Positions 7,264-25,877 of a stretch of 64,000 nucleotides of DNA are shown here, piece by piece. Below the pieces are notes generated by a model. The model searched no databases. It saw only the letters and a program-made list of their open reading frames with translations, and was not told the DNA's origin. Every line of letters begins with the position of its first letter. The first letter of the stretch is position 1. A program made the position numbers and the translations under genes. Source of the DNA: Erythrobacteraceae bacterium (GTDB lineage Bacteria; Pseudomonadota; Alphaproteobacteria; Sphingomonadales; Sphingomonadaceae); the NCBI GenBank assembly GCA_027486035.1, contig JAIXPX010000033.1, forward strand, positions 186,001-250,000, written 5' to 3'.

Positions 7264-7604
7264 GAGCCGCGCTGTTCCTGCCCCTCGCCTTTCTGCTCGC
7301 GGCCTGCGGTGCGGCGCCGAGGGTCGAATTCGCCGATGCCAGCATCACCCTGCCCGATGATCCCGGCGATCTGCCCGAAGGCCCGGGACGCGATTCCGTG
7401 ATCGAGAACTGCACCGCCTGCCATTCGCCCTCGACCATGCTCCAGCAGCCCAAGATCAGCCGCGAGAAATGGGAGGCGACGGTCAAGAAGATGGTCACGC
7501 TCTACAAGGCGCCGGTCGACGAAAAGGCCGTGCCGCAGATCGTCGACTACCTGCTCGCGGCGCAGGCGGGCGAGGGCGATGTTTCACGTGAAACACCGCG
7601 ATGA
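7260..7604 (+). CDS. sorB: SorB-like monohaem cytochrome c lipoprotein
   Basis: A 114-residue protein with a short signal ending in the lipobox LAAC (Cys16) and one haem-binding site CTACH at 51-55. The size and the position directly behind sorA (4-nt overlap) match the cytochrome subunit of sulfite:cytochrome c oxidoreductase, here predicted to be tethered in the periplasm. Met78 or Met69 could be the distal haem ligand. The last codons (encoding DVSRETPR) are formed by a perfect parS sequence at 7580-7595, so the C-terminal tail is dictated by a ParB site rather than by function. Confidence 0.8.
   Translation: MRAALFLPLAFLLAACGAAPRVEFADASITLPDDPGDLPEGPGRDSVIENCTACHSPSTMLQQPKISREKWEATVKKMVTLYKAPVDEKAVPQIVDYLLAAQAGEGDVSRETPR
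7580..7595. other. parS site (ParB-binding), copy 1
   Basis: TGTTTCACGTGAAACA is the perfect 16-bp palindromic consensus for chromosomal ParB (Spo0J). It lies within the 3' end of the sorB-like coding sequence, 9 bp before the stop. The same sequence recurs at 25763-25778. ParB loads at parS as a CTP-dependent clamp to segregate the origin region and recruit SMC. Confidence 0.9.
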
Positions 7605-7664
7605 AGGGGGTCTAGAGGGGGTCTAGACCGCACCGGGCGGGGTCCAAATCCGATAGGGAGGGGG
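7605..7664 (+). repeat. 11-bp G-tract repeats beside parS copy 1
   Basis: AGGGGGTCTAG occurs at 7605-7615 and 7616-7626 in perfect tandem. GGG and GGGG tracts follow at 7635-7642, and AGGGGGTCT occurs again at 7659-7667. The block begins 9 bp after parS. Four G-runs lie within about 40 bases, so quadruplex formation is conceivable. A related array sits next to the second parS. Confidence 0.75.
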
Positions 7665-7793
7665 TCTGCCCCGCGCTACCCTTTGCCTCGGCCCGCCTGC
7701 GCTTCGTCCCGCCCCGCCGGCACCATGTCGCATTTGTATCCCCAAGCGCGGGCGTGCTGTAAGCTGTCCCGCGCCATCAAGGAGAACCCGACC

Positions 7794-8537
7794 ATGCGAC
7801 CCCGCGCCCTTTCCCTGCTGCTTGCCGCCGCCGCCTTCGCGCTTCCGGGCATTGCCCGGGCCCAGAACGCCCCGGCCCCGGCCCCGCCCGCCTTCACCCT
7901 CGCCCCGCTGCCCTATGCTGCCGACGCGCTTGAGCCGGTGATCGATGCCGAGACGATGCGCATCCACCACGGCAAGCACCACCAGGCCTATGTCGACAAT
8001 CTCAACAAGGCGCTGGCCGAAAACCCGGTCCTGAAGGACGCGAGCCTCGAGAGCCTTGTCGCCCGCGCCGGCACGCTGGCGCCGGCGATCCGCAACAATG
8101 CCGGCGGACACTGGAACCACACCTTCTTCTGGGAGACCATGGCCCCCACCGCCAAGGTCGGCGCCATCTCGCCCGCGCTTGCCGCTGCGATCGATGCCCG
8201 GTTCGGCAGCCTCGACAAGTTCAAGGCCGCCTTCAAGGCCGCCGGCACCGCGCGCTTCGGATCGGGCTGGGTGTGGCTGGTCATCGGCAAGGACGGCAAG
8301 CTCGCGATCACCTCGACCCCCAACCAGGACAACCCGCTGATGGACGTGGCCGAGGCCAGGGGCACGCCGGTGCTCGGCAATGACGTGTGGGAGCACGCCT
8401 ATTACCTCAAGCACCAGAACCGCCGCGGCGACTATCTCGACAGGTGGTGGCAGGTGGTCGACTGGGGCAAGGTCTCGGCGCGCTATGCCGCCGCGACCAG
8501 CGGACAGGCGGAACAGGCGGGGCATGAGGGCCACTGA
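7794..8537 (+). CDS. Exported Fe/Mn superoxide dismutase
   Basis: A 247-residue protein with an N-terminal signal peptide (about 1-23, RALSLLLAAAAFALPGIARA) before a complete iron/manganese SOD domain. Metal-ligand motifs are visible: MRIHHGKHHQAYVDNLN (first His), GHWNHTFFW (second His) and DVWEHAYYL (Asp and last His). It converts superoxide to peroxide, here probably in the periplasm, whereas most family members are cytoplasmic. ATG 7794 has AAGGAGAA at 7779-7786. The next gene encodes a VIT-type Fe/Mn transporter, a plausible functional link. The metal (Fe or Mn) cannot be read from the sequence with confidence. Confidence 0.92.
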   Translation: MRPRALSLLLAAAAFALPGIARAQNAPAPAPPAFTLAPLPYAADALEPVIDAETMRIHHGKHHQAYVDNLNKALAENPVLKDASLESLVARAGTLAPAIRNNAGGHWNHTFFWETMAPTAKVGAISPALAAAIDARFGSLDKFKAAFKAAGTARFGSGWVWLVIGKDGKLAITSTPNQDNPLMDVAEARGTPVLGNDVWEHAYYLKHQNRRGDYLDRWWQVVDWGKVSARYAAATSGQAEQAGHEGH

Positions 8538-8577
8538 GCCCTTGCCTTGCGCGTCCCGGGAGCGGCACAGTGCGCGC

Positions 8578-9297
8578 ATGGACCAGCCCGCCACCCAACC
8601 CACCGGCCACCCCGACGATCCGCACTATGTCCACCGCACCGGCTGGCTGCGCGCGGCGGTGCTGGGGGCCAATGACGGGATCATCTCGGTCGCCTCGCTG
8701 ATCATCGGCGTCGCCGCCGCAACCCCCGAGGCCGGCCCCGTGCTGATCGCCGGATCGGCCGCCCTGATCGCGGGCGCGATGTCGATGGCGGCGGGGGAGT
8801 ATATCTCGGTCTCCTCGCAGGCCGACAGCGAGCGCGCCGACATCGCCCGCGAGGCCGAGGCGCTGGCCGCCACGCCCGCCGACGAGGAGGCGGAACTCGC
8901 TGCCATCTACCGCGCGCGCGGGCTGTCCGAAGCGACGGCGGCAGCGGTCGCGCGCGAGCTTTCCGCGCATGACGCGCTCGAGGCCCATGTCAGGGACGAG
9001 CTCGGCCTTGCCGAACACCTCGCGGCGAGGCCGCTCCAGGCCGCGCTGGCCTCGGGCGCGACCTTCAGCACAGCGGCCGCGGTGCCGCTCCTTGCCGCAT
9101 GGCTCGCCCCGGCCGGTGCGATCATGGCGAGCGTCGTGGGTGTCTCGATCCTGTGCCTCGCCGCGCTCGGCGCGCTCGGGGCAAGAGCGGGCGCCGCGCC
9201 GCTGGTGCCGGCGACCCTGCGCGTGGTCGGCTGGGGCGTCTTTGCCATGGCGAGCACGGCTGCGGTGGGCCGCCTGTTCGGGGTCAGCATCGGGTAG
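8578..9297 (+). CDS. VIT1/CCC1-family iron/manganese transporter
   Basis: A 239-residue membrane protein with five predicted helices in the VIT layout. The first two carry GANDGIISVASLIIGVAAA and ALIAGAMSMAAGEYISVSSQ, where the MAAGEY motif is characteristic. A charged cytosolic loop (about 85-150) separates them from three C-terminal helices. Family members move Fe2+ or Mn2+ out of the cytosol. ATG 8578 is 40 bp after the superoxide dismutase stop. Co-expression would combine removal of redox-active metal with superoxide detoxification, which is inference from adjacency. Confidence 0.85.
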   Translation: MDQPATQPTGHPDDPHYVHRTGWLRAAVLGANDGIISVASLIIGVAAATPEAGPVLIAGSAALIAGAMSMAAGEYISVSSQADSERADIAREAEALAATPADEEAELAAIYRARGLSEATAAAVARELSAHDALEAHVRDELGLAEHLAARPLQAALASGATFSTAAAVPLLAAWLAPAGAIMASVVGVSILCLAALGALGARAGAAPLVPATLRVVGWGVFAMASTAAVGRLFGVSIG

Positions 9298-9427
9298 GAC
9301 GGGCTGGCCGCGCGCCGAAACCGGCCAAGGGCAATGCAGGATAGGGCAAGCCGCCCTGCGGGTGTGCCCGTGTCGGTGTCCAATGAGGGAGGGGCCAGCG
9401 AGAGCCCCGATGAAAAGGACCTTCGGC

Positions 9428-9625
9428 ATGGCGATCCGCAATCTCTTCAAACCCGCGCCCGCGCCCCGCACCAGGCCTTCAGCGAAGGCCGGGCAGCGAC
9501 CCGAGCAAGCCAATGACCTTCAGGTCGATGACAGCCACACCCAGTGGCGGCACGCGCAGATGGAGCAGCTCGAGCGCAGCTATCTGGCCGCCTGCGATGC
9601 GGTGGAAAGCCCGGCTGCAGCCTGA
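9428..9625 (+). CDS. Small hypothetical protein (65 aa)
   Basis: A short protein with a basic N terminus (MAIRNLFKPAPAPRTRPSAK) and an amphipathic, charged second half (HTQWRHAQMEQLERSYLAACDAVE) that could form one helix. ATG 9428 is chosen because AAAAGGA (9413-9419) is well placed; ATG 9410 is an alternative that adds six residues. I do not recognise the family. Codon usage fits the surroundings. It ends 30 bp before the convergent galM gene. Confidence 0.5.
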   Translation: MAIRNLFKPAPAPRTRPSAKAGQRPEQANDLQVDDSHTQWRHAQMEQLERSYLAACDAVESPAAA

Positions 9626-9655
9626 ACCGCACAGGCGGCGCGGCGCCCGGATGCC

Positions 9656-10756
9656 CTAATCCGCCACGCCGAAAATGAACCGGATCGCGTGACGATAGGT
9701 CTCTCCCGGCGCGAGACGGATCGCGCCGAATGCCGGGCGGTTGGGTGTGTCGGGGAACATCTGCGGCTCGAGCGCGACCCCGTCGCCCCGCCGGTAGGGC
9801 TTGCCGGTCTTGCCCGTGGCGGTGCCATCCAGAAAATTGCCCGAATAGAACTGCACCCCGGGCTCGGTCGAATGGACCGCGAGGCTGCGGCCCGAGGCCG
9901 GGTGGACGAGCCGTGCGACGAGGCGCGGGGCCGCGCTGCGCCCGCGCGCCACCACCCAGTTGTGGTCATAGCCCCTGCCGATGGCGATCTGCGGATGGGC
10001 GGTGTCATCCACCCGCGCGCCGATCACGCGGGGCCTGCGGAAATCGAACGGCGTGCCGGAGACGGGGGCGAATGCGCCGGTGGGAATCGCGCCGGCGTCG
10101 GTCGGCAGGAAGGTTTCGGCCGGGATCATCAGCTCGTGATCCATCGCGCCGCTTGCCGCGCCCTCGCCCGCAAGGTTCCAGTAGGCGTGGTTGGTCATGT
10201 TGACGATCGTCGGCGCGTCGGTCGTGGCCGTGTAGTCAATGGCCAGCGTGCCATCATCGCCCAGACCATAGCTCGCGGTGACGCGCAGCTCTCCGGGAAA
10301 GCCCTGATCCCCGTCGGGGCTGACATGGGTCATGACGACGCGCGGCAAGGGCGCGGCGGCGATCTCGGCCACCTCCCACAGCATCCTGTCGAAGCCTTGC
10401 GGCCCGCCATGCAGCGCATGGGCACCATTGTTGCAGGGCACGCGGTATTCCGCGCCGTCAAGCACGAAGCGCCCGCCCGCGATGCGGTTGGCGACGCGGC
10501 CCACGCTCGATCCGAAGAAGGCCGCATTGGCAAGGTATCCGCCCAGCCCGGCATGGCCGAGCGTGACATCGGCCAGGGCACCCTCGCGGTCCGGCACGAC
10601 CAGCGATTGCAGCGTCGCCCCGTAGGCGAGGATCGTGGCGCTCATTCCCCGCGCATTGACCAGCGTCACGGCCGCCACCGCGCGGCCATCGGGCAGGTGG
10701 CCGAACAGCCGGCGATGCGCGCCGGGGGCGAGATCGGGGGCAGGGGGCTGGGTCAT
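9656..10756 (-). CDS. galM: Aldose 1-epimerase (galactose mutarotase)
   Basis: A 366-residue enzyme that interconverts alpha and beta anomers of aldoses. Family signatures are present: HALHGGPQGFDRMLW, the catalytic-His segment NMTNHAYWNLAGE, and GVALEPQMFPDTPNRP with the catalytic Glu near the C terminus. No signal peptide is seen. ATG 10756 (MTQPPAPD) is preferred over an in-frame ATG 16 codons upstream, because homologues start near here. It borders a decayed sugar-utilisation locus (10.8-12.5 kb) and may be its surviving member. Confidence 0.9.
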   Translation of the reverse strand: MTQPPAPDLAPGAHRRLFGHLPDGRAVAAVTLVNARGMSATILAYGATLQSLVVPDREGALADVTLGHAGLGGYLANAAFFGSSVGRVANRIAGGRFVLDGAEYRVPCNNGAHALHGGPQGFDRMLWEVAEIAAAPLPRVVMTHVSPDGDQGFPGELRVTASYGLGDDGTLAIDYTATTDAPTIVNMTNHAYWNLAGEGAASGAMDHELMIPAETFLPTDAGAIPTGAFAPVSGTPFDFRRPRVIGARVDDTAHPQIAIGRGYDHNWVVARGRSAAPRLVARLVHPASGRSLAVHSTEPGVQFYSGNFLDGTATGKTGKPYRRGDGVALEPQMFPDTPNRPAFGAIRLAPGETYRHAIRFIFGVAD

Positions 10757-10839
10757 CGGCCGGTCCTCTAGAGGATGCCCGCTGCCCGGCAAGCGCCGAT
10801 GCATCTTGCGGCCTGCACCCTTGCCGCGCTTTTTCGCGG

Positions 10840-11159
10840 GCGGCCTTCACCTGGATCGTGGTCGGCCCATCAAAGGCCTGCGACACGAGCGGTTGGCTGG
10901 CGCGGTCCGGCGGTCGCGCCGGCCGCAAGGCTGCTGGCGGGGGAGCAGGTCACACGCCTTGCGATCGCATGGCGCGATGACGGGGCGGAGCAGCCGCTCG
11001 GGCCTTGTGCCGAATATGCGGCGCTCGGCGCTCCACGCCCGGTTCGGCGAGCGGGTGCGTGCCCGGGGGATCGCCGCCGATTGTGCGCCGCTACGGTTCC
11101 TTGCCGATGCCGCGCTGATCGCCCGGCGCGATCCGGCTCCGGGCCTCTCCGTAGCCTGA
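10840..11159 (+). pseudogene. Possible coding remnant, unidentified
   Basis: The 563-bp stretch 10757-11319 holds no intact gene. Coding-like sequence changes frame within it. One frame reads PAARLLAGEQVTRLAIAWRDDG around 10915-10985, and another reads MRRSALHARFGERVRARGIA and then FLADAALIARRDPAPGLSVA up to the TGA at 11157. The latter loosely resembles sugar-kinase C termini (an RF...G...AP pattern), but too little is left to name. From 11200 the sequence turns AT-rich and becomes the promoter of the next gene. Confidence 0.3.
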
Positions 11160-11248
11160 CAGGTGATTCTCCGCAGGCTCGCCCATTCCTTACGGAAACC
11201 TTTCACCAGTACATATATATTCGTTTTTGCGGATAAAACTTAATCTTG

Positions 11249-11264
11249 TTGTAATCGATTGCAA
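11249..11264. promoter_or_regulatory. LacI-type operator-like palindrome
   Basis: TTGTAATCGATTGCAA is palindromic except for one base pair and has the AATCGATT core common in LacI-family operators. A further half-like copy, GCAATCGACT, follows at 11280-11289. It lies 56 bp before the FCD regulator start in an unusually AT-rich tract (11200-11305). Confidence 0.45.
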
Positions 11265-11319
11265 CTAACAGACATATCTGCAATCGACTTAACAAAAGAT
11301 ACTAGGGGGCAGACCGAGA

Positions 11320-11984
11320 ATGTTGACGATAGAAGCTGCCGGGGGCGGCCGGAACCTCACCTACGCCTTGCTGGAAGCGGTGGGAAAATCGATTGTCGCG
11401 GGCCGATTTGACAGCAATCCTTTCCCCACAGAGGCCGATCTCGCCAAGCAATATGCCGTCAGCCGTTCGGTGACCCGCGAGGCGGTCAAGATGCTCACCG
11501 CCAAGGGGCTGCTCGCAGCGCGCCCGCGCAAGGGCACCACCGTCCAGCCTTCGCGGGCCTGGAACCTGTTCGATCCCGATGTGCTGCGCTGGATGATGGA
11601 GCGCAATTTCTCGCTCGAACTTTTGCGCTATTTCAATGAGCTGCGGCACGCTATCGAGCCGATGGCCGCCGCGCTTGCCGCGCAGTCCGCCACCCTCGAG
11701 GGCATCGCCAGAGTCAAGGCCGCCTATCAGCGGATGCTCGATGCCGAGACCGGCCGGGACGAGCCGCTGGAGGCCGACACGGCCTTCCACATCGCCATTC
11801 TCGAGGCCAGCAACAACCCCTTCTACGCCCAGCTCGGCGACATGGTGTCGATCGCCCTCAAGACGTCGATCCGCTTCACCAATCGCGTCAAGGGTGCCTC
11901 GATCGCGAAGCCGCCCGCGCGGCGATGACCGCCCTCATCGACAGCGTCTTTGCCCTGCTCGCCGACGCGCAAGCGGTTAGCTAA
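11320..11984 (+). pseudogene. GntR/FadR (FCD) family regulator, C terminus broken by deletion and frameshift
   Basis: The open frame 11320-11928 encodes a winged-helix domain (FPTEADLAKQYAVSRSVTRE, then LLAARPRKGTTVQP) and most of an FCD ligand domain (AFHIAILEASNNPFYAQLGD). After NRVKGASIA near 11906 the frame runs into an unrelated PPARR tail. The expected FCD ending resumes in another frame as EAARAAMTALIDSVFALLAD and stops with TAA at 11982-11984. About 20 residues normally lie between these two segments, so a short out-of-frame deletion at about 11903-11907 has removed the last FCD helices. DNA binding may survive; ligand response probably does not. Confidence 0.7.
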
Positions 11985-12086
11985 CGTTTTATCATTCAAC
12001 TAACACGGTATCGCCGCCCGGGACGTGCATCGCCTCGTCCCGGGCGCTGCCCGCGATCCCGCTCGGTTCGTCGCATAAGACCGCGC

Positions 12087-12251
12087 GATCCGGCCGAGAC
12101 CTTCGCGGTCGAGGCCGAGGCCGAGGGCATCGCCGCGCGCTTCACCCTGCGCCTCGGCGGTGTCGAGAAGACCTTTCGCCTGACCACCGGCCAGCACAAC
12201 CACTACGCGGTGTTCTTCGGCGAGCTGGCGCGCGATTTCGGCACCCGCGCC
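12087..12251 (+). pseudogene. Orphan coding fragment, C-terminal domain-like
   Basis: One frame reads EGIAARFTLRLGGVEKTFRL followed by [20 protein letters not shown] with no start codon, and it is joined directly to a GH43-like fragment in a different frame near 12252. It resembles the end of a periplasmic carbohydrate-active protein, but I cannot name the family. I read it as the residue of a gene deleted together with part of its neighbour. Confidence 0.45.
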
Positions 12252-12531
12252 CATCACCAACGACGCGCTTGATGCCTTCCCGATGCTCCATTCCGACGAT
12301 CTGGAGACCTGGACCCACAAGGGCTTCGTCTTCCCCGAGGGCGAGGCGCCCGAATGGACCGCGCACGGCCGCCCCGTGGGCGATTACTGGGCGCCGGAAA
12401 TGGCCCGGTGCGGGGACGAATACTGGCTGGTCTACACCGCCGACCATCCGCTTGGGCCTTAGATCAAGCAGGACGGGCCGCTGCTGACCACGAAGCTGCG
12501 CTTCAGCCGTGAGAGAGTGACGCTCGACTGA
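12252..12531 (+). pseudogene. Glycoside hydrolase family 43-like remnant
   Basis: The frame reads [20 protein letters not shown] and then [20 protein letters not shown], which matches the N-terminal beta-propeller blades of GH43 arabinanases/xylosidases (the DLETWT and YWAPE...YWLVYTA signatures). An in-frame TAG at 12460-12462 interrupts it. The same frame then continues with IKQDGPLLTTKLRFSRERVT to TGA at 12529. Both ends of the gene and most of the propeller are missing. With the broken regulator and fragments upstream, this marks a degraded plant- or algal-sugar locus. Confidence 0.65.
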
Positions 12532-12658
12532 CCTTTCCAGCCGACGAACGACGGGCAGGCTCGACAAAGGTCGGCAAACAATCTGCCGAGGCGATTGGCC
12601 GCGCGCCAAAAAGCACGCTAGGCTAGCAAGATAGGACCAAGGCAATCAGGGGCCCGTC

Positions 12659-13546
12659 ATGCTTGAACTTTCCGGCGTCAGTCACGTCTATCCCAATGGC
12701 ACCCATGCGCTCGACAATGTGAACCTGTCGATCCCCAAGGGCATGTTCGGGCTGCTCGGCCCCAACGGCGCGGGTAAATCGACGCTGATGCGCACCATCG
12801 CCACCTTGCAGGCACCGACGCAGGGCACCATCCGCTTCGGCGACATCGACGTTCTGGCCGAACCGGATCGCCTGCGCCGTACGCTCGGCTACCTGCCGCA
12901 GGATTTCGGCGTCTATCCGCGCGTCTCGGCCTACCAGATGCTCGATCACATGGCCGTGCTCAAGGGCGTCAACAACGCCTCCGAGCGCAAGGCGATGGTC
13001 GAACACCTCCTGAACCAGACCAACCTGTGGAGCGTGCGCGGCAAGGCGATCGCGGGCTTTTCGGGCGGGATGCGCCAGCGCTTCGGCATCGCCCAGGCCC
13101 TGATCGGCGAGCCCGCGCTGATTATCGTCGACGAGCCCACCGCCGGGCTCGACCCGGAAGAGCGCAACCGCTTCCTGAACCTGCTGGCGGGCATCGGCGA
13201 GAACGTGGTGGTGATCCTGTCGACCCACATCGTCGATGACGTCGCCGACCTGTGCCCGCGCATGGCGGTGCTGGCAGGGGGCAAGCTGCGCCTCGAAGGC
13301 GCGCCGCATGATCTGATCGCCTCGACCAAGGGCCGCGTCTGGCAGAAGACCGTGCCGCACACCCAGCTTGGCGAGATGCAGGCGGCCCACGAGGTCATAT
13401 CGCACCGCTTTTTCGCGGGCGAGATCGTCGTCCATGTGCTCGCCGACAGCCAGCCCGAAGGCTTCGCGCCGGTCAGCGGCGGGCTCGAGGACGTCTATTT
13501 CGCAACCCTCGCCGAAACCCGCCGCGCGCCCGCGCAAGCGGCGTAA
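12659..13546 (+). CDS. ABC transporter ATP-binding protein
   Basis: A 295-residue ATPase with Walker A LLGPNGAGKST (about 34-44), the Q-loop QDFG, signature FSGGMRQR (about 134-141), Walker B LIIVDEPTAGLD and the switch His in LSTHIVDD. It supplies energy to the ABC-2 type permease encoded 15 bp downstream. The C-terminal region after residue 230 is a short accessory domain. Together the two genes resemble sphingomonad pairs in which the permease carries an M1 peptidase domain. The substrate is unknown. Confidence 0.93.
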   Translation: MLELSGVSHVYPNGTHALDNVNLSIPKGMFGLLGPNGAGKSTLMRTIATLQAPTQGTIRFGDIDVLAEPDRLRRTLGYLPQDFGVYPRVSAYQMLDHMAVLKGVNNASERKAMVEHLLNQTNLWSVRGKAIAGFSGGMRQRFGIAQALIGEPALIIVDEPTAGLDPEERNRFLNLLAGIGENVVVILSTHIVDDVADLCPRMAVLAGGKLRLEGAPHDLIASTKGRVWQKTVPHTQLGEMQAAHEVISHRFFAGEIVVHVLADSQPEGFAPVSGGLEDVYFATLAETRRAPAQAA

Positions 13547-13561
13547 GAGAGGGCTGCCATC

Positions 13562-16500
13562 ATGCTGACCGCCAGCCTTGCCGCCTTCGAAATCCGCTAC
13601 CAGCTGAGGAACCCGGTGTTCTGGGTTTCGGTGGCGATCTTCTTCCTTCTGGGCTTCGGCCTTGCCGCATCGGAGAACGTGAGCTTCGGCGCGCCCGGAG
13701 CGGTGCACGAGAACTCGCCCTACACGCTCACCATCGCCAGCGCGATCTTCGCCACCTTCTACCTCTTCGTCATCACCGCCTTCGTGGCCAATGCGGTGGT
13801 GCGCGATGACGTGACCAAGTTCGGGCCGATGATCCGTGCCACGCCGGTGGGCCGCACCCAGTTCCTCGCCGGGCGCTTCCTCGGCGGGCTCGCCATTGCG
13901 ACGCTCGGCTACATCGCGGTGCCGCTGGGCATCGCGGTGGGCGCGGCGATGCCCTGGGTCGATCCCGAGACGGTAGGCCCCGGCGGCTTTGCCACCTATG
14001 CCTGGCCGTTCCTGATCATCGCCATCCCCAACCTGATCCTGTCCTCGGCGCTGCTGTTCAGCCTTGCGACGCTCACCCGCTCGATGCTGGCGAGCTATAT
14101 CGGCGTGCTGGTGCTGGTGATGGCCTATCTGGCGGTCAATGTGCTCGCCTCGGCCGACCCCGCCAACCTGCCCCTCATCGCCCGCTACGAACCGCTCGGC
14201 ACCGCCGCGATCAGCGAGGCGACGCGCTACTGGACGGCGGCGGAAATGAATTCCCGGCTGATCCCGCTCGAGGGCAACCTCCTGTTCAACCGGATCTTCA
14301 CACTCGGCCTGGCCGCGCTGTTCCTGATGATCGCCTGGCTGCGCTTCAGCATGACCGAACGCGCGCCTTCGCGCTGGCGGCTGCGGCGTCTGGCCCGGCA
14401 GGCCGCGCGTGCCGCCAAGGCCGAAAGCGTGCCGCCGCGTGCCCTCACCGCGCCCGTGCACCGCAGCTTCGGCCTCGGCCACGGCCTCGCCGCCTTCCGG
14501 ATGCGCCTCAAGACCGAGGTGTTGCAGGTGCTCAAGAGCCCGGGCCTGATCGTCCTCTTGCTGATTGCGGTGTCCTTCATCATACTCAACCTCGTGAGCG
14601 CGGAGACGGTCTACGGCACCGGCTCCTATCCGCTCACCGCCGGCATCATCACCACCGTGATCGGCAGCATCACGCTGTTCAGCCTGATCATCGCCGTGTT
14701 CTACGGCGGCGAGCTGGTCTGGCGCGAGCGCGACGTGAAGATCAATGAAATCCTTGATGCGACCCCGGCCCCGGGCTGGGCGGTGTTCGTGCCCAAGATC
14801 ATCGCGATCTTTGCCGTGCTGATCGTCATGTCGCTGGCAGGCGCCCTGACCGGCATGATCTACCAGCTCGCCAAGGGCGCGGGCGGGGTCGATATCGGCC
14901 TCTACCTTTCGGCGTTCGTCTGGCCCCAGAGTGTGGACCTGCTGCTGATCGCGATCCTCTCGGTGTTCTTCCAGGTCCTCAGCCCTAACAAATATGTCGG
15001 CTGGGGGATCATCCTCGTGTGGTTCCTGAGCCGCATCTTCCTCCAGAACCTTGGCTACCAGAACATGCTCTACATGTTCGGCGCCGGGCCGGGCGAGCCT
15101 TTGAGTGACATGAACGGCACTGGCGGCTTCTGGGTCGGCGGGTTGATCGCGCGCGCCTACTGGGCGTGCTTCGGGGTGCTGCTGCTGGTGTTTGCGCACT
15201 GGGCCTGGCCGCGCGGCACCGTGGTCGCCGTCCTGCCGCGCCTCAAAGGCATCCGTGGCCGCGTCACCCTGCCCTCGGCAGGCATCGCTCTCGCCGCAAT
15301 CGGCGGGATGGTGGGCACTGGCCTCGTCATCAACCACAACATCAAGGTGCTCAACACCTACGAGACATCGGACGAGAGCGAGGCGCGCCTGGCCGAGTAC
15401 GAGCGCAAATATCTCAAATACGAAACCCTTCCGCGGCCGGTGGTCACCGATGTCGTCTTCGACGTCGCGGTCTACCCGAAAGAGCGCCGGCTCGAGGTCA
15501 CGGGTCACTATGACCTGCGCAACGACAGCGGGGTGCCGATCACCGAGCTGCACGTGCGGCAGGGCAATGCCGAGGTCCGCTTTGCACGGCTCGAGATCGC
15601 CGGGGCCAGGCTCGCCAGCCACGACACGCGCCACGGCTACCGCATCTACCGCTTCGCCGCCCCGCTGGCGCCGGGCGCGACGACGCGGCTGTACTTCCGC
15701 TCGCAGGTGTGGCGGCGCGGCTTTGCCAACGGCAGCGCTGCGACCGATATCGTCGACAACGGCACCTTCGTGAACAACGGGGTTTTTGCCCCGACCATCG
15801 GCATGGACCGCCGCGGCCTGCTTCAGGACCGCGCCCAGCGGCGCCGCCAGGGGCTGCCTGCAGAGCTGCGGATGGCGAAGCTTGAGGACACGGCCGCGCA
15901 AGCCGAGAACTACGTCCGCGCCGACTGGGTCAATTCGCGCATCACCATCAGCACCGATGCCGATCAGGTGCCGATTGCACCGGGCAACAAGCTGTCGGAC
16001 GAGGTCAAGGGGGGACGCCGCGTCGCGGTGTTCCAGAGCCCTGCGCCGATCCTCAACTTCTTCTCGGTGCAATCGGCGCGCTATGCCGTCGCCGAGGAGC
16101 AGGCCGGGCCGATCACCTTGAGCGTCTATCACGATCCGCGTCACGCGTGGAACGTGCCCGCGATGCTGAAGTCGATGAAGACCTCGCTGGCCTATTACCA
16201 GCGCGCTTTCGGGCCCTACCAGTTCGGCTATGCGCGGATCATCGAGTTCCCGGGTTACGACAGCTTCGCCCAGGCCTTTGCCGGGACCATGCCCTATTCG
16301 GAAAGCATCGGCTTTGCCGCCGACGTGCGCGATCCGGAGAGCATCGACTACGTCACCTATGTCACCGCTCACGAGGTCGCGCACCAGTACTGGGCGCACC
16401 AGCTGATCGGCGCGGACATGCAGGGCTCGACGCTGCTGTCGGAGACGCTGTCCCAATACAGCGCGCTGATGGTGATGAAGCAGCTCTACGGCGAGGACAA

Positions 16501-17170: not shown

Positions 17171-17184
17171 GCGGGCCCGGTCAC
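17150..17184. terminator. Bidirectional terminator-like hairpin
   Basis: GTGACCGGGCCCGCC (17150-17164) and GGCGGGCCCGGTCAC (17170-17184) form a perfect 15-bp stem with an AGATA loop. It overlaps the stop codon of the permease/peptidase gene and sits just before the stop of the convergent AceE-like gene. There is no long T-run on either side. Confidence 0.65.
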
Positions 17185-17185
17185 A

Positions 17186-19552: not shown

Positions 19553-19629
19553 TGCCCGCGTCCTTCCACCTCAGCGGCAGCGCAGCACGCGCAGCCGCCT
19601 GCGCCTCTGCCCCGCAAGGTGTGGGCGCG

Positions 19630-21297
19630 TCAATTGGGCCAGTAGATGAACTCGTCTCCCTCGCGGTAGGGCTGGGCCAGGGTCTTGTCGATCGAGACAG
19701 GCGTATCGAAGGTGCTGGCGTAGAGCGGCGGCTTACGGCCGCGTTCGTGAGCGGCCAGCAGCGCCTCGAGCTCGCGGCGCTTGGCGGGCTCTCTGGCGGC
19801 GAGATTGGTTGTCTCGGTCGGATCGGCGGCGAGGTTGTGGAGCCACGTCTTGCCCTGCTTGCCGTTGACCTGCAGCTTCCAGTCACCGGCGCGCACCGCC
19901 TTGTAATAGCCGCTGCTCCAGAACAGCGGGGCCTGCGGGTCGAGCGCGGCGCCCTTGCCGGTCAGCGCAGGGATGAGGCTGCGCCCGTCGATCGCCACGC
20001 CCTGCGGCAGCGGCGCGGCGGCGGCGGCCGCGAAGGTCGGCATGAGATCGACCTGTGCCACCGGTAGCGCGATCTGCGCCCCCGCAGGGATCCGCGCCGG
20101 CCAGCGCGCTAACATCGGCACGCGGATGCCGCCTTCGAAGAAGCTCCCCTTGCCCCCGCGAAAGGGCGCATTGAGATTGTCGAGCCCGATATAGCCCGGC
20201 GCGCCATTGTCCGAGGAAATCACCACCAGCGTGTTGTCCGCCAGCCCCTCGGCCTCGAGCTTGGCCATGATCCGCGCGACCGAGCGGTCGAGCGCGCGCA
20301 GCATCGCGGCATAGACGCGCAGCTGGTGCGGGCCGATATCGCCCACCGCGTCATAATCGGCGCGCGTCGCCTGCAAGGGCGAATGGACGCCCCAATGGGC
20401 AAGGTAGAGGAAGAAGGGGCGATTGCGGTTCGCCTCGATCACCTTGAGGCTCTGGTCGGTCCAGTAATCGGCCAGATAGCCGCCGGGCGTGAATTTCTCG
20501 CCGCCATTGTAGCTGGTGGCGAAATGGGACGAGGCCCACAGGAAACGGTCGATCGGGTCGAAGTCGATGGGGGCGTTGACGACACCGGGGTCATCGGCCG
20601 CCATGTGCAGCAGCCCGTCCATGTTGAGGCTCTCGTCAAAGCCCTGGGCCTTGGGCAGGAAGCGCGGCGCATTGCCGAGATGCCACTTGCCGATGTGGAC
20701 CGTGTGATAGCCGCGCGCCTTGAGCACTTCTGCGATGGTCACCTCTTCGGGCGGAAGGCCCTGATCCTCGAAGGGCGGAGCGGCGGCGGCGGCATCGGGG
20801 TGGGTGATGACCGGCGGGCGATCGGGCTGGATGTCGTTCCACACCAGCGGCACGATCCGGGGGAAGCCGGAGGGCGTCGGGGTGAATTCGAACCCGGTGC
20901 GCGTGGCATAGCGCCCGGTCATGAGCTGGGCGCGGCTGGGCGAGCAGGTCGCATTGCCGGCATAGGCCTGGGTGAAGATCGCGCCCTCGGCGGCGAGCCG
21001 GTCGATGGCGGGAGTCTTGATCCTGCCGCCCGCGACCCCGCCGCCAAAGGTCGACAGGTCGTTCATGCCAAGATCGTCGAACAGGATGAAGACGATGTTG
21101 GGCGGCCGTTCGGCCGGGGCAAGCGCGGCCTGCTGCGGCCCCTGCTGCCAGGGCACCGGACGGTTGGGCGCGACCTCCTGCGCGGTCTGCCAGCGCACCA
21201 GCGCAAGCGCGAGATCGGTGCGGAACTGATAGGCTCCTGCCGCCAGCACCGCCGCCCCGGCAGCGGCGCCGAGCAGCCCCTTCAGCCAGCGCGTCAC
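19630..21297 (-). CDS. Type I sulfatase (arylsulfatase family), membrane-anchored or exported
   Basis: A 555-residue alkaline-phosphatase-fold sulfatase. Residues 6-22 form a hydrophobic signal or anchor. NIVFILFDDLG supplies the metal-binding Asp pair, CSPSR (118-122) is the canonical CxPxR formylglycine site, and GKWHLG and SSDNGAPGY complete the active site. It should hydrolyse sulfate esters in the periplasm once Cys118 becomes formylglycine. Its start overlaps the DUF1330 stop by 4 nt, and a formylglycine-generating enzyme lies three genes upstream in the same run. The sulfated substrate is unknown. Confidence 0.9.
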   Translation of the reverse strand: MTRWLKGLLGAAAGAAVLAAGAYQFRTDLALALVRWQTAQEVAPNRPVPWQQGPQQAALAPAERPPNIVFILFDDLGMNDLSTFGGGVAGGRIKTPAIDRLAAEGAIFTQAYAGNATCSPSRAQLMTGRYATRTGFEFTPTPSGFPRIVPLVWNDIQPDRPPVITHPDAAAAAPPFEDQGLPPEEVTIAEVLKARGYHTVHIGKWHLGNAPRFLPKAQGFDESLNMDGLLHMAADDPGVVNAPIDFDPIDRFLWASSHFATSYNGGEKFTPGGYLADYWTDQSLKVIEANRNRPFFLYLAHWGVHSPLQATRADYDAVGDIGPHQLRVYAAMLRALDRSVARIMAKLEAEGLADNTLVVISSDNGAPGYIGLDNLNAPFRGGKGSFFEGGIRVPMLARWPARIPAGAQIALPVAQVDLMPTFAAAAAAPLPQGVAIDGRSLIPALTGKGAALDPQAPLFWSSGYYKAVRAGDWKLQVNGKQGKTWLHNLAADPTETTNLAAREPAKRRELEALLAAHERGRKPPLYASTFDTPVSIDKTLAQPYREGDEFIYWPN

Positions 21298-21710
21298 GCG
21301 CCCGCCCCCGCTTTCGTGCAGATGTTGAGCTGCCCTTCGAGCCCGGCGTCGCGGTGCCTAGTGATCGCCTGATACTCGGGCGACTGCACCATCGCCAGCA
21401 TGGCCTTGCGCGAGGGATATTCGGCAATCGCCACCATGTCCCACAGCTCCTCGACTTCGCCCAGCAGCAGTCCGGTCACCGCGCCGCTGAAGCGCACCTT
21501 GCCGCCGACCACCGCAAGGCAGGCGTGCACGCCCGCCGCATAGCGCGCATAGGCCTCGCGTCCCGAAAGCTCCGGCTCGGACCCGTCGGCATAGGCAGCC
21601 TTGTCGCGGAACTTGAGGAGATTGACCATGCACATGGGCTCGCCGTCATCGGCGGCAAAGAAGCCCATCGCCTGTTCGGGCCTCGGGTGGTGGGCGTTGG
21701 TGACGATCAT
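21294..21710 (-). CDS. DUF1330 (dimeric alpha-beta barrel) protein
   Basis: A 138-residue protein with MCMVNLLKFRDKA and a following YARYAAG...VGGKVRFSG segment typical of DUF1330, then WDMVAIAEYPSRKAMLAMVQSPEYQ. The fold is a ferredoxin-like barrel related to EthD and monooxygenase-type small domains; the function is unknown. It overlaps by 4 nt both the upstream dehalogenase gene and the downstream sulfatase, so the three are almost certainly co-translated. A role in handling a common xenobiotic or sulfated substrate is inference from this coupling. Confidence 0.8.
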   Translation of the reverse strand: MIVTNAHHPRPEQAMGFFAADDGEPMCMVNLLKFRDKAAYADGSEPELSGREAYARYAAGVHACLAVVGGKVRFSGAVTGLLLGEVEELWDMVAIAEYPSRKAMLAMVQSPEYQAITRHRDAGLEGQLNICTKAGAGA

Positions 21711-22615
21711 TGCGGCTCTCCCTTGCGCAGCGCGTCGAGAATGGCGGCGACGAAGCCTTGTGGATCGTCCTCCTGGATGAAATGCCCGCCCGCGAGCGTG
21801 CGGTGCGGCTGACCCGCGGTCCCGGGCACGCGGCCGATGAAGCGGGTCTCGCCGCCGCGGGTGATGGGATCGCCATCGGAAAAGGCGCAAAGGAAGGGCT
21901 TGTGCCACTGGTCGAGCACTGTCCATGCCTCCTTCTGGTCGGCGACCGCCGGATTGCCCTCGAAGGGCACGAAGCTCGGGAAGATCCGGGCGCCGGCCTT
22001 GTAGCGGGCGTCGGGGAAAGGCGCGTCATAGGCGGCGATCTCGTCGGCCGAGAGCGCGCGCCTGGTGCCCTTGGCGATGATCCTGCCAATCGGGAACAGC
22101 GGGCTCCATTTCGAGAAGGCGCGCCAGATCGCGAAGGCGCGGGGCGCGGGGCCGCCTTCGGGCAGGCCCCCGTTCGACAGCGCCACGGCGCGGAACCGGT
22201 CGGGACAGGCCGCCACCAGCCGCAGCCCGATCAGCGAGCCCCAGTCCTGACAGGCAAGCGTGATGTCCGATAGGTCGAGCGCCTCGAGCCACTGCCGCAT
22301 CCAGTCGACATGACGGGCATAGGAATAGTCGCTTTTGGCAGCGGGCTTGTCGGATCTGCCAAAGCCGATGAGATCGGGTGCGACGACGCGATATCCCGCC
22401 TCCACCACGGGGCCGATCATATGGCGATAGAGATAGCACCAGGTCGGCTCGCCATGCATCATCAGCACGACCGGCGCATCGCGCGGGCCTTCATCGATGT
22501 AGTGAACGCGCAAGGGCATGCCGCTCGCCCGGTCGTGCACCTCGAGGTAACGGGGGGCGAAAGGAAACCCCGACACGCCTGCAAAGGCCTCTTCCGGTGT
22601 GCGCAGCACCTTCAC
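21707..22615 (-). CDS. Haloalkane dehalogenase (type I, DhlA/DhmA-like)
   Basis: A 302-residue alpha/beta hydrolase. The oxyanion/halide motif HGEPTW is at 54-59, and the nucleophile elbow ACQDWGSLIG gives Asp124 followed by Trp125, the same spacing as in DhlA. A SDGDPIT segment and GGHFIQEDDPQG supply the later acid and catalytic His. It would hydrolyse carbon-halogen bonds to alcohols in the cytoplasm. Epoxide hydrolases also have Asp nucleophiles, but the HGEPTW and QDW motifs favour a dehalogenase. It lies 73 bp after the FGE-like gene in the same transcriptional direction. Confidence 0.82.
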   Translation of the reverse strand: MKVLRTPEEAFAGVSGFPFAPRYLEVHDRASGMPLRVHYIDEGPRDAPVVLMMHGEPTWCYLYRHMIGPVVEAGYRVVAPDLIGFGRSDKPAAKSDYSYARHVDWMRQWLEALDLSDITLACQDWGSLIGLRLVAACPDRFRAVALSNGGLPEGGPAPRAFAIWRAFSKWSPLFPIGRIIAKGTRRALSADEIAAYDAPFPDARYKAGARIFPSFVPFEGNPAVADQKEAWTVLDQWHKPFLCAFSDGDPITRGGETRFIGRVPGTAGQPHRTLAGGHFIQEDDPQGFVAAILDALRKGEPQ

Positions 22616-22688
22616 GGCTTCTCTTCCTCTCCCGATCTATTGGCATCAGGAATGTCATTATAGGCCGCGCCCGTCAATGCCCGCCCTG

Positions 22689-23618
22689 TCAACGTGCCGG
22701 TGGCGGCGGGCGACGGGTGTCGATCAGCCGGAAGCCGATGTGGTCGGTGCCGAGCGTGCGTTCCTGGAACTGGCGCGCGGCCGGGCGGTAGCGCGCGCAG
22801 TAATTGGCAGCGCACAGGAACGAGCCGCCCTTGATCACCCCGACCGGCTCGCTGGCGTCGGCCCGCCCGCCTGAGGTCGTCGTCCACTCCCACACATTGC
22901 CGATCATGTCGTGAAGCCCGAAGGCATTGGCGGCAAAGCAGCCGACCGGGGCGCGACCCGTGAAGCCGTCGGTGCCGAGATCGCGTGCCGGGAATGCGCC
23001 CTGATAGTAATTCGCCCGGGGCTTGCCTTCGTCGTCCACCGGCTCGGGCAGAGCCTGCGCGCCGGCCCGCGCGGCATATTCCCACTGGGCTTCGTCGGGC
23101 AGCGCCTTGCCCGCCCAGGCAGCATAGGCAGCCGCGTCCTCATAGGCGACCTGCACCACCGGGGCGCGCCCTTGCCCGGCGATCCCCGCGCCGTCCCCTG
23201 CCGGGTCGCGCCACTGCGCGCCGGGAGCCCAGCGCCACCACGAGCGGTCCTCGCGGGTCGGCACGCGGAACACCGCCGATCCCGGTTCCAGCATCGCGGG
23301 TGGAGCCCCCGGCAGCGCCGGCGGGGCGCGTTCGGCCATGGTGACATATCCGGTCGCCGCGACGAAGGCGGCGAACTGGTCGTTGGTGACTTCGTGGGCA
23401 TCCATCCAGAAGCCCGCGACGGTGACCTCGCGCGGCGGGCCTTCCTCGGGGTAGCGGGGTTCCTCGCCCATGGTGAATGTGCCGCCGGGCACCCACACCA
23501 TCGCGTCGCCATCACGTCCGGCACACAGGCTGGCCGCGCCATCCTGCGCCGGCGCCGCATCGCCGCAGGCCGCCACCGCAGCGCACAGGATCACAAGCGC
23601 GGGCCCGTGCCGACCCAT
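22689..23618 (-). CDS. Formylglycine-generating enzyme family protein with lipoprotein-type signal
   Basis: A 309-residue SUMF1/FGE protein that oxidises the CxPxR cysteine of sulfatases to formylglycine. Domain motifs run from MVWVPGGTFTMG (40-51) through HEVTNDQFAAFV and PDEAQWEYAARAG to GLHDMIGNVWEWT. Both active-site cysteines are present in GGSFLCAANYCARYR (Cys269 and Cys274). The N terminus is hydrophobic and ends in AVAAC (Cys18), a lipobox-like signal, so the enzyme appears exported, unlike the usual cytoplasmic bacterial FGEs. Its likely client is the CSPSR sulfatase of the same cluster. Confidence 0.85.
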   Translation of the reverse strand: MGRHGPALVILCAAVAACGDAAPAQDGAASLCAGRDGDAMVWVPGGTFTMGEEPRYPEEGPPREVTVAGFWMDAHEVTNDQFAAFVAATGYVTMAERAPPALPGAPPAMLEPGSAVFRVPTREDRSWWRWAPGAQWRDPAGDGAGIAGQGRAPVVQVAYEDAAAYAAWAGKALPDEAQWEYAARAGAQALPEPVDDEGKPRANYYQGAFPARDLGTDGFTGRAPVGCFAANAFGLHDMIGNVWEWTTTSGGRADASEPVGVIKGGSFLCAANYCARYRPAARQFQERTLGTDHIGFRLIDTRRPPPPAR

Positions 23619-23620
23619 CC

Positions 23621-24226
23621 CTATTCCTCGGGCCAGCGCGCCAGCGCGTCGCCAAGCATCCGCTCGACCACCGCCCGGGCCTCCTCGGGGGACAGGCTCT
23701 GGTCATGGCGCAGCAGCCGCCATGTGCTGAAGGAGAGGATCACATTGAGACCGCGGGCACCCGCGACATCCTCCCGCACCTCTTCGGGCAGATGGGCCGC
23801 AAGCGCCTCGGTCTCGAGCCGGAGCATCCTGCGATAGTCCTCCATCAGATAGGCCGAATCGAACCGACGGGCATTGGCCGAGATGCGATAGGGCATGATC
23901 GTCTCGAAGATCAGAGCACGGCGCGCAGCGATGTCGAACAGCCGCTGCTGCCAGGTCGCACCCTGGGGCGGGCGCATGAGGATCGGCAGCACCTGCAATT
24001 CGACCGCCTCGGTCATCTCGCGGTAGAGTTCGTCGATCTCGGAGAAGTGGCGATAGACCGACCTGAGACCGACACCGGCAAGATCCGCGACCTGCGAAGC
24101 GCTCGGGGACATCTCGCCGCCACCGACCAGATCGAGCATGGCCTTGACGATCTTCGCGCGGCTCGACTGGCTGCGGGCGCGGCGGCCATCCGGGGCAGCA
24201 GGGTTGCCCGCAACGATGTGCCTCAT
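23621..24226 (-). CDS. TetR-family transcriptional regulator
   Basis: A regulator of about 201 residues with an N-terminal helix-turn-helix (ASQVADLAGVGLRSVYRHFS) and an all-helical C-terminal half with no recognisable ligand signature. ATG 24226 is chosen; a TTG 27 codons upstream is possible but would overlap promoter-like TTGACA sequence. It ends 2 bp before the FGE-like start and reads in the same direction, so it probably heads the sulfatase/dehalogenase run and may control it. Repression relieved by a pathway substrate is the usual mode for the family, not shown here. Confidence 0.82.
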   Translation of the reverse strand: MRHIVAGNPAAPDGRRARSQSSRAKIVKAMLDLVGGGEMSPSASQVADLAGVGLRSVYRHFSEIDELYREMTEAVELQVLPILMRPPQGATWQQRLFDIAARRALIFETIMPYRISANARRFDSAYLMEDYRRMLRLETEALAAHLPEEVREDVAGARGLNVILSFSTWRLLRHDQSLSPEEARAVVERMLGDALARWPEE

Positions 24227-24478
24227 GTCTGGCTGGCTCACGCTACCGGTCCCCGGAGGCGACACTACCCCCCCGGCGAAAGATAGTATTTGCAGCTTTG
24301 CTGTCAATAATTGCGGGGGGCGTCAGGGAATGGGCAGAGGCAGGAAGACCGCACCCCCGCGTCAGTCGAGGCGGGGCTTGTGCGGGGAAGGCTATCAGAC
24401 GCGCGGAAGCGGTCACCTTGCCGCCCCCGTCAGCGCCCCGCCGCGGCAGCGCGCGGACATCAGATCGTGAGGAAAGGG

Positions 24479-24569
24479 TGGCGGAGCAGGAGGGATTCGA
24501 ACCCTCGATACGGTTTTGCCGTATACACACTTTCCAGGCGTGCGCCTTCGACCACTCGGCCACTGCTCC
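24479..24569 (-). tRNA. tRNA-Ser (anticodon GGA), CCA encoded
   Basis: The minus strand begins GGAGCAGTGGCCGAGTGGTC and its 3' strand CTGCTCC closes a 7-bp acceptor stem. The anticodon GGA is at 24535-24533, between T and AA, and a long type II variable arm (ATACGGCAAAACCGTAT) is present. The T-arm GGTTCGAATCCC is intact, and discriminator G plus CCA are encoded at 24482-24479. No integrated element is seen at its 3' end. Confidence 0.95.
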
Positions 24570-24683
24570 GTCGTGTCCTTGGGCTCTACCGCATCGCTGC
24601 TTGAGCGCCTTCAAGGGCAAGAGCGCGGGCACTAGACGCGAATGGATTGCTTCGCAAGGCGCGTGGTGGCACCAATTGGTGGC

Positions 24684-25754
24684 ATGAGAACCCTGCTTCT
24701 GGCAGCCTCGGCTGCGCTCGCCCTGACCTTGCCGCTGGCTGCGCAAGAGACAACCAAGCCTACGGCTCTCGCCCCGTCCGAAATCGTCGCTGCCGCGCCC
24801 AAGGCGGACTGGGTGGCGATTCCGGCGGAGGATCTGCTGGTGATGACCCTTGCGCCGGATGCCGACGGCAAGCCGCGGGTGGTGGTGATCCAGCTCCTGC
24901 CCGCCCCTTTCAGCCAGGGCTGGGTGCACAACATCCGCCTGTTTGCCCGCGCCAAGTGGTACGACGGCATCTCGGTCAACCGGGTGCAGGACAATTACGT
25001 CACCCAGTGGGGCGATCCCAATTACGACAACCCCGAGGCGAAGGGGAAGCCGAAGCCGCTGCCCGAGGGGCTGAAGGTGATGGGGGAGGCTGAGTATATC
25101 ACGCGCGCCTCACGCGAAACCGTGCCCTCGGTTTGGACCGAGGCAGGAAAGTTTCCCTTTGACGAGGCCATCACCCCTTTCCGGAGCGTCAGGGCTGGCA
25201 CCGTACCCTCGCGCTTCGCGGATCCCTACACCTCGATGGCGGGCTTCGCGGGAGGCTTTCCCGTCGGCCTCGCCATCGAGGGCACGATGGCTAAACGCGC
25301 AGTGCCAACGGGGCCGGACATTGCATGGCCCACCCACTGCTACGGCATGGTCGGCGTGGGCCGGAATTACTCCCCCGACACCGGATCAGGTGCCGAGCTC
25401 TACACCGTGATCGGCCATGCGCCGCGCCATCTCGATCGCAATATCGCACTGGTCGGCCGGGTGATCGAGGGGATGGAGCACCTCTCCTCGCTGCCGCGCG
25501 GATCGGGGGCGCTGGGGTTCTACACCGCTGCGGAAGCAAACAAGCGCACCCCGATTCTCACCGTCCGTGTGGCGAGCGACCTGCCCCTCGCCGCGCAGCC
25601 CAAGTTCGAATACCTCTCGACCGAGAGCGGCACCTTCGCCACCTACGCCGAAGCCATCGCCAATCGCCGCGATCCGTTCTTCATCACCCCCGCCGGCGGG
25701 GCGGACATCTGCAACATCAAGGTGCCGGTGCGGCGGCTCGCGGACGCCAAGTGA
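24684..25754 (+). CDS. Exported cyclophilin-type peptidyl-prolyl isomerase
   Basis: A 356-residue protein with a signal peptide (MRTLLLAASAALALTLPLAA, cleavage after about residue 20). The cyclophilin domain is visible as VVIQLLPAPFSQGWVHNIRL, WYDGISVNRVQDNYVTQWGD (about 90-110) and GGFPVGLAI, ending with ELYTVIGHAPRHLDRNIALVGRV. It would isomerise prolyl bonds during folding in the periplasm. ATG 24684 starts the signal peptide; a longer in-frame start would lengthen the N terminus implausibly. A parS site begins 8 bp after the stop. Confidence 0.82.
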   Translation: MRTLLLAASAALALTLPLAAQETTKPTALAPSEIVAAAPKADWVAIPAEDLLVMTLAPDADGKPRVVVIQLLPAPFSQGWVHNIRLFARAKWYDGISVNRVQDNYVTQWGDPNYDNPEAKGKPKPLPEGLKVMGEAEYITRASRETVPSVWTEAGKFPFDEAITPFRSVRAGTVPSRFADPYTSMAGFAGGFPVGLAIEGTMAKRAVPTGPDIAWPTHCYGMVGVGRNYSPDTGSGAELYTVIGHAPRHLDRNIALVGRVIEGMEHLSSLPRGSGALGFYTAAEANKRTPILTVRVASDLPLAAQPKFEYLSTESGTFATYAEAIANRRDPFFITPAGGADICNIKVPVRRLADAK

Positions 25755-25762
25755 GGCCAGAT

Positions 25763-25778
25763 TGTTTCACGTGAAACA
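25763..25778. other. parS site (ParB-binding), copy 2
   Basis: TGTTTCACGTGAAACA is identical to copy 1 at 7580-7595. Here it is intergenic, 9 bp after the cyclophilin stop and 100 bp before the convergent rsh stop. Two perfect sites 18.2 kb apart are typical of an origin-proximal parS cluster. Confidence 0.92.
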
Positions 25779-25798
25779 CTGCGAAAACGCCGCGCAAG

Positions 25799-25837
25799 AG
25801 GGGGGCTAGAGGGGGTCTAGAGGGGGGCTAACCGGGG
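25799..25837 (+). repeat. 11-bp G-tract repeats beside parS copy 2
   Basis: AGGGGGGCTAG (25799), AGGGGGTCTAG (25810) and AGGGGGGCTAA (25821) are spaced exactly 11 bp apart and followed by GGGG at 25834-25837. The four G-runs have loops of 5, 6 and 6 nt, which fits a canonical G-quadruplex pattern. The block starts 20 bp after parS and matches the array at 7605-7664. Confidence 0.8.
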
Positions 25838-25877
25838 TCTGGCGGCCAGCAAACGCGCGCGGCGACCACCCTTCCCG

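Follow-up and report, generated by a model that had tools for sequence, protein, structure and literature searches.

In a 64,000-nucleotide stretch of Erythrobacteraceae bacterium DNA (assembly GCA_027486035.1, contig JAIXPX010000033.1, positions 186,001 to 250,000; hereafter the window), two parS sites are each followed by a short array of 11-bp repeats. With a probability of roughly one half, these sites are members of a chromosome-wide set of composite elements, each combining parS with one-sided, register-locked 11-bp repeats, whereby ParB is predicted to occupy parS and a putative second protein likely occupies the repeats. The composite anatomy, the phase lock and one-sidedness of the arrays, their kept position and orientation, the lineage-specific repeat words, the concerted change of sites and their dispersal over the chromosome are all directly observed. 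A wider reading, to which we give slightly less than even odds, would see here a two-protein centromere: in one Erythrobacter clade ParB would have been taken from the origin and put to use at dozens of stations round the whole chromosome, each pinned by a putative second protein that forms a short one-sided filament in register with ParB, the parS and array codes evolving separately and each in concert.

Both window parS are perfect palindromes of the form TGTTTCACGTGAAACA, located without strand at 7580..7595 (parS 1) and 25763..25778 (parS 2), and each carries 11-bp units with a GGGGTCT-like core on a single flank only. Array 1 (7605..7667, forward strand) consists of AGGGGGTCTAG at 7605 and 7616 followed by the cores GGGGTCC at 7639 and GGGGTCT at 7661, and array 2 (25799..25840, forward strand) of units at 25799, 25810 and 25821 with a fourth core GGGGTCT at 25834. 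The repeats had been described by a first-pass annotation of the window and are real: a search for AGGGGGKCTAG with at most one mismatch recovered exactly five matches in the whole window (7605, 7616, 25799, 25810 and 25821, the last ending in AA and hence carrying one mismatch), all of them directly after the two parS, as compared to a mean of 1.38 and a maximum of 4 matches in 100 shuffled controls. The further copy AGGGGGTCT that had been reported at 7659 is present as well. When a five-unit profile was run over both strands of the 64 kb, scores of at least 14 were obtained at the two arrays only (27.8 and 49.2), the best score among 30 Markov windows being 8.7; this profile was trained on arrays of the window's own genome (G000; 2.55 Mb in 52 contigs) and of a complete relative (G003), including the two arrays of the window. 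Cores matching GGGG[TG]C[TC] start 11, 22, 43 and 65 bp after parS 1 and 22, 33, 44 and 55 bp after parS 2. The gaps between parS and array, 9 bp and 20 bp, differ by exactly one repeat, which places both window arrays in the same register.

This helical phase lock, meaning that units sit on one flank only, at distances from the parS end that are multiples of about 11 bp, had been missed by the first-pass annotation and extends well beyond the window. By eye, most dispersed parS of G000 and G003 possess a run of degenerate 11-bp units on one flank alone, while no array was seen by eye at the parS of their origin clusters. Counting confirmed more units on one flank at 32/36 dispersed sites in G000, 40/45 in G003 and 36 of the 39 fetched from a second complete relative, G021, whereby sites with equal unit counts on both flanks were left unoriented. 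An ungapped alignment anchored on parS holds most information in units 3 to 6, the signal fading out by about +90. Measured modulo 11 from the 16-mer's end, the first unit starts at 10, 0 or 1 in 66 of 68 oriented sites (G000 29/31, G003 37/37). Taking the flank with more words as the array side, GGGTCT falls into the three best adjacent phases in 60/67 cases in G000, 67/71 in G003 and 93/100 in G021, GGGTCA does so in 17/18 cases in G105, and CAAYGA in 27/34 cases in G095 and G128 taken together; the words found on the opposite flank number 0, 0, 1, 0 and 0, respectively. A consensus-free test, in which sides were assigned by 11-bp self-similarity and the sequences then folded modulo 11, was compared with 1000 random phasings, none of which equalled the observed lock in any of G000, G003, G021 and G105. 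The same register was found for arrays identified by their own word at parS with one or two mismatches to the 16-mer, 12 of 13 of which lie at 10, 0 or 1, although two of the 13 (L348, L371) have a parS of the form TGTTNCACGTGNAACA. Single unit steps average 10.91 bp (23 steps of 10 bp and 3 of 12 bp) and two-unit steps 21.3 bp, and steps near the helical repeat are expected where units must face one side of the DNA.

Position and orientation of the elements are kept between species. Between G000 and G003 a reciprocal partner by flank similarity was found for 30/43 sites and the array orientation was kept in 19 of 20 oriented pairs; the corresponding values are 24/53 and 17/17 for G003 and G021, and 18/43 and 13/13 for G000 and G021. 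Overall, orientation was kept in 49 of 50 pairwise ortholog comparisons, whereby the three comparisons overlap and include origin-cluster sites, one of them oriented by chance words. Neither of the two window sites has a partner in the sets fetched from G003 and G021, the G021 set lacking 9 of that genome's 56 sites. The unit words GGGTCT, GGGTCA and CAAYGA are lineage-specific, with side and register persisting. At one position, orthologous by eye, five genomes have parS and an array, each in its own word: GGGTCTAG in G021 (L265), GGGTCA in G105 (L274), CAATGA in G095 (L335) and G128 (L342) and GGGGTCT in G045 (L211). More generally, the G095 and G128 word is approximately RCAATGAYCSG and takes, in register, the place that the GGGGTCT array has in other species (L332, L335, L330, L319, L327, L342). 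The parS sequence itself has switched in G021 (L230-L269), where TGTTCCACGTGGAACA accounts for 52 of 56 copies, including 7 of the 8 in the origin cluster, and none of the 56 has the form TGTTTCACGTGAAACA. As the array word of G021 stayed GGGTCT while its parS switched, the codes of parS and array change separately from each other, and this points to two activities that bind DNA: ParB, at parS, and probably another protein, at the array. These findings also bear on the idea that the elements are an intergenic repeat family spread by copying without any ParB role, in the manner of repetitive extragenic palindromic (REP) sequences or bacterial interspersed mosaic elements (BIMEs). Many copies and a location at gene ends would be in line with such a family, but a near-invariant parS core next to degenerate arrays, the conservation of position and orientation between species and the switch of dispersed parS together with the origin cluster in G021 would not, making this explanation very improbable.

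Since the origin-cluster and the dispersed copies switched in concert in G021, it is inferred that ParB occupies the dispersed parS. The array binder would be a protein other than ParB which oligomerises head to tail along one face of the DNA and sits in register against ParB, and its contact with ParB may, by analogy with KorA and KorB, hold or stop the ParB clamp on the array side. Each element would thereby constitute a short pinned ParB station at a gene end, behaving apart from the array-less origin cluster, with arm anchoring, SMC loading or local partition as possible roles. Among the roles that had been proposed for the repeats earlier, an accessory-protein site or a ParB barrier fits best.

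The main rival to a second protein is an extended parS, i.e., that ParB itself reads the array by a second surface, resulting in polar ParB loading. ParB of plasmid P1 is an example of a protein reading two kinds of boxes. That the register is set from parS would be expected, and the ParB of the dispersed clade has indeed changed: in a tree of 22 genomes picked by hand (L055, L075, L290-L309), a branch of length 0.54 with 100/100 support separates the 15 genomes with dispersed sites from seven origin-only genomes, and 12 diagnostic positions set both groups apart. These positions fall in the helix-turn-helix region and near the C-terminus, among others. Such a long stem branch suggests a burst of change in the ParB of the dispersed-parS clade. 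An extra GAACN half-site 11 bp out, found at some array-less sites, points in the same direction; in G000, G003, G021 and G105 taken together, GAAC is located there in 8 of the 39 sites that lack an array (those of the origin cluster counted in) versus 4 of the 125 that bear one. On the other side, the array word is GGGTCT in G021 versus GGGTCA in G105, yet their two ParB proteins hardly differ in the aligned part of the C-terminus, and arrays without parS exist. Taken together, an extended parS is considered unlikely. In the genes beside parB in G000 and G003, which are standard by eye, no candidate for the array binder was seen, a family search not having been made. As a separate observation, the extra half-site, in the form GAACA one repeat beyond GAAACA, occurs at some dispersed parS (L226, L277, L323, L334, L340 and others) and is by eye frequent in G045, G047, G095 and G128.

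Known chromosomal parS lie near the origin and number up to 20-23 (PMC7333895). A second parS cluster in Caulobacter is tolerated only if placed in a zone of about 500 kb around the native one (PMC5815017). In G000, TGTTNCACGTGNAACA occurs 43 times, with seven copies within 5 kb on contig C5 and 36 elsewhere. The former constitute the origin cluster, which adjoins genes of the mnmG-rsmG-parA-parB type (ParB identified by TIGR00180, the other names given by eye). The complete relatives G003 and G021 hold 54 and 56 parS, of which 46 and 48 lie beyond the origin cluster, and in neither genome are the sites confined to the origin region. Along the chromosome arms, with the origin placed at the parS cluster, dispersed sites cannot be distinguished from a uniform distribution (Kolmogorov-Smirnov p 0.26 for 45 sites in G003 and 0.52 for 48 in G021). 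Within the genus, 47 of 114 genomes hold 9 to 69 parS, 66 hold 0 to 6 and one holds 7. In a sample of 298 genomes of the family, more than 7 parS were found only in the host's genus and in one other, g104, five genomes of which hold 13, 9, 13, 6 and 5. Among the matches listed, most of which (L102-L181) were used for their names only, the named records with parS and array include Erythrobacter colymbi, E. dokdonensis, E. sanguineus and Porphyrobacter sp. AAP60, next to a few in Streptomyces, Bifidobacterium and a metagenome-assembled genome of Fimbriimonadaceae that look like chance. The clade possesses dozens of conserved full parS round the chromosome, many with a phased array, and departs from the origin-region rule.

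Scattered sites could also serve to keep division off the nucleoid, as Noc does. The resemblance lies in scattered palindromes for a ParB-family protein, about 70 Noc-binding sites (NBSs) being given for Bacillus Noc (PMC4331003). Unlike there, arrays are present here, G003 and G011, with 54 parS each, have one TIGR00180 match each, and terminus depletion is not significant. A single match was likewise found in eight genomes with 14-38 sites (G047, G054, G060, G087, G095, G097, G101 and G104), and a single ParB-family match in genomes with many sites means that a Noc-like paralog is not required. We know of no phased arrays at Noc sites, and a Noc-like function is regarded as improbable. A ParB paralog as a requirement is hence disfavoured, and so is Noc-like terminus depletion, given the above p values and the fact that the farthest bins of both genomes hold sites, the two farthest of G003 holding only 3 each.

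Whether the repeat is a true companion of parS can be judged from both sides. Starting from parS, relatives were found to carry arrays, parS being followed within 6-36 bp by GGGTCT in 28 of the 114 genus genomes, and a GGGGTCT double unit is present at least twice in 30 genomes of the 47 that hold 9 or more parS, but in none of the 67 with fewer, three of which have a single match. Starting from the array, above-threshold arrays directly adjoin parS in 31 of 35 cases within 340 kb of G000 and in 40 of 43 within 330 kb of G003, both samples being DNA around parS and hence biased to its surroundings. Of the seven remaining arrays, five lie 200-228 bp off a dispersed parS, one is on the opposite strand of an array region (C5:35388) and one stands alone. 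Searched by array word alone, G000 yielded 21 clusters (the author's grouping of 26 matches), 12 of them at TGTTNCACGTGNAACA, three at a parS with one mismatch and six at none. In G003, 37 clusters (51 of 52 matches) were obtained, 25 of them no more than 300 bp away from one of the 53 sites fetched, as opposed to an expected 0.38, one at another parS site (L371) and one at a parS with one mismatch (L347). In G024, a parS with one or two mismatches is located 27-93 bp upstream in 8 of the 9 array clusters fetched. Arrays free of parS exist, yet they are a minority where sequence was read. The repeat is a real companion of parS, with the qualification that the origin-cluster parS that were read have no arrays and that some arrays lack parS; the earlier interpretation of the repeats as a whole is supported in part.

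Several of these and further findings weigh against the composite-element reading. Some dispersed parS have no adjoining array, and the five arrays near such sites are 200-228 bp away; the six parS-free clusters of G000 are joined by 10 of the 37 in G003 that are without known parS, the two read (L365, L367) having none, and of 50 array starts in G024 only 8 are near TGTTNCACGTGNAACA, with 25 of 30 positions known. The dispersed TGTTCCACGTGGAACA sites of g104 show no visible arrays in the sites read, which means that dispersal does not need the array. As to register, the lock of 0.384 in G095 and G128 is equalled by at least one of 1000 random phasings (mean 0.177, maximum 0.388), the array word being present at only 14 of 27 sites there, and no significant lock was obtained in the sample of G045 and G047 (0.267, random mean 0.221, maximum 0.438). 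The bias in unit steps could equally be expected from a G-run losing one base. Other genomes with dispersed sites have more ParB-family matches, namely 2 in G000, 6 in G021 and 10 in G024. Finally, ParB binding, the array binder and its effect on ParB are inferred.

Three side observations concern sites at which parS and array are not found together. The distance of 200-228 bp between arrays and array-less parS is strikingly uniform (G000 C32:6229 and C23:49344; G003 661010, 1294549 and 2037183). One orphan array is by eye at the same locus in two species (L031, G000 C42:76950; L364, G024 C1:417422), where the nearest parS-like 16-mers have 4 mismatches at a distance of about 1.1 kb and 6 mismatches at 210 bp. 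In G224 of g104 (L313, L317, L325, L345), a handful of dispersed parS, some closely paired, were seen with arrays not visible.

The elements are preferentially found at gene ends. Based on home-made gene calls, which rely on codon usage and not on a standard annotator, 37 of the 73 sites with an orientation are flanked by convergent genes, as compared to 31 of the 181 gaps of 60 bp or more that served as background; tandem pairs hold 17 versus 9 sites in the two orientations, divergent pairs 5, and 5 sites are within a called open reading frame (ORF), three of the 73 being origin-cluster sites of G003 oriented by chance words. The start of parS lies 0-31 bp past the stop of the parS-side gene in 34 of these 37 convergent pairs. 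Window site 2 belongs to such a pair: parS 2 starts 8 bp past the stop of ORF 24642..25754 (forward strand, same orientation as array 2), and ORF 25878..27968 (reverse strand) converges on array 2. At site 1, parS lies within the final codons of ORF 7260..7604 (forward strand, 114 amino acids, stop at 7602-7604), which ends just ahead of array 1 and contains CTACH, a CxxCH motif, so that we take its product to be cytochrome c-like. The statement of the first-pass annotation that neither array is in a gene is hence correct for both arrays, which are intergenic, but parS 1 itself is inside an ORF.

The excess of convergent pairs would suit an element acting on the transcript, with the strand complementary to the array giving a C-rich Rho-loading or terminator RNA. 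The two orientations in tandem pairs do not fit this, and neither a register set from parS nor near-helical steps are expected of Rho utilization (rut) sites. The CAAYGA word differs strongly. Moreover, in four genomes the stem matches beyond parS reach or slightly exceed the expected level, and TTTT on the non-array side is found at a minority of sites (3/32, 4/41, 5/37 and 5/15). An intrinsic terminator is disfavoured on these grounds, the structured transcript end considered earlier is not supported, and a transcript-level role as a whole appears decidedly improbable. A few parS of G021 (L263, L269, L255; 3 of 37 oriented) reside in longer terminator-like palindromes with 7 bp more per side, which is not general.

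G-runs and array polarity could further be taken as a quadruplex or as a polar signal resembling the FtsK-orienting polar sequences (KOPS). The four-run quadruplex pattern noted in the window fits array 2 but not array 1. With loops of up to 7, it is met in 7/32 arrays of G000, 16/40 of G003 and 19/36 of G021, though in 0/15 of G105 and 0/14 of G095 and G128, and the quadruplex is therefore abandoned as a shared feature. Relative to the origin the arrays have no polarity (19 versus 19 in G003, 21 versus 15 in G021), by which a KOPS-like polarity toward the terminus is disfavoured. Explanations of this kind are disfavoured and extremely improbable.

Comparison with described systems places the elements closest to the chromosomal ParABS system, with which they share a chromosomal ParB, the very same 16-bp palindrome and a cluster of sites at the origin next to parAB, and from which they differ by the 36, 46 and 48 further copies in G000, G003 and G021 and by the phased one-sided array. 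The parC site of plasmid R1 is a plasmid site without parS or ParB, unlike the elements found here, and PhoP is a protein of the OmpR/PhoB kind. Serially bound 11-bp direct repeats are described for parC and its ParR (PMC9426499), serial repeats of about 11 bp being present here too, and PhoP binds 7-bp motifs with 4-bp spacers (PMC4832192). In the KorB-KorA system of plasmid RK2, a ParB-family CTP clamp is held by an adjoining DNA-bound partner (PMC11790492), which applies here as an analogy only: KorA is known and acts at promoters, whereas here a multi-unit phased array is located at gene ends and its binder is putative. The register suggests, by this analogy, a DNA-bound partner that contacts the ParB clamp in KorB-KorA style. 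ParB sites over the whole chromosome are also described for Pseudomonas aeruginosa, those being heptamer half-sites and not full parS with arrays (PMC7022226). Among the titles and abstract openings listed from an open-licence library on parS and ParB in Erythrobacter, on dispersed parS, on parS numbers and repeats, and on Sphingomonadales, none describes the element. As bacterial centromeres are described as a device of the origin region, the clade with dispersed parS departs from that description and lends itself, as a natural experiment, to studying the local confinement of ParB clamps, the control of SMC loading at many sites and the recognition of a ParB partner.

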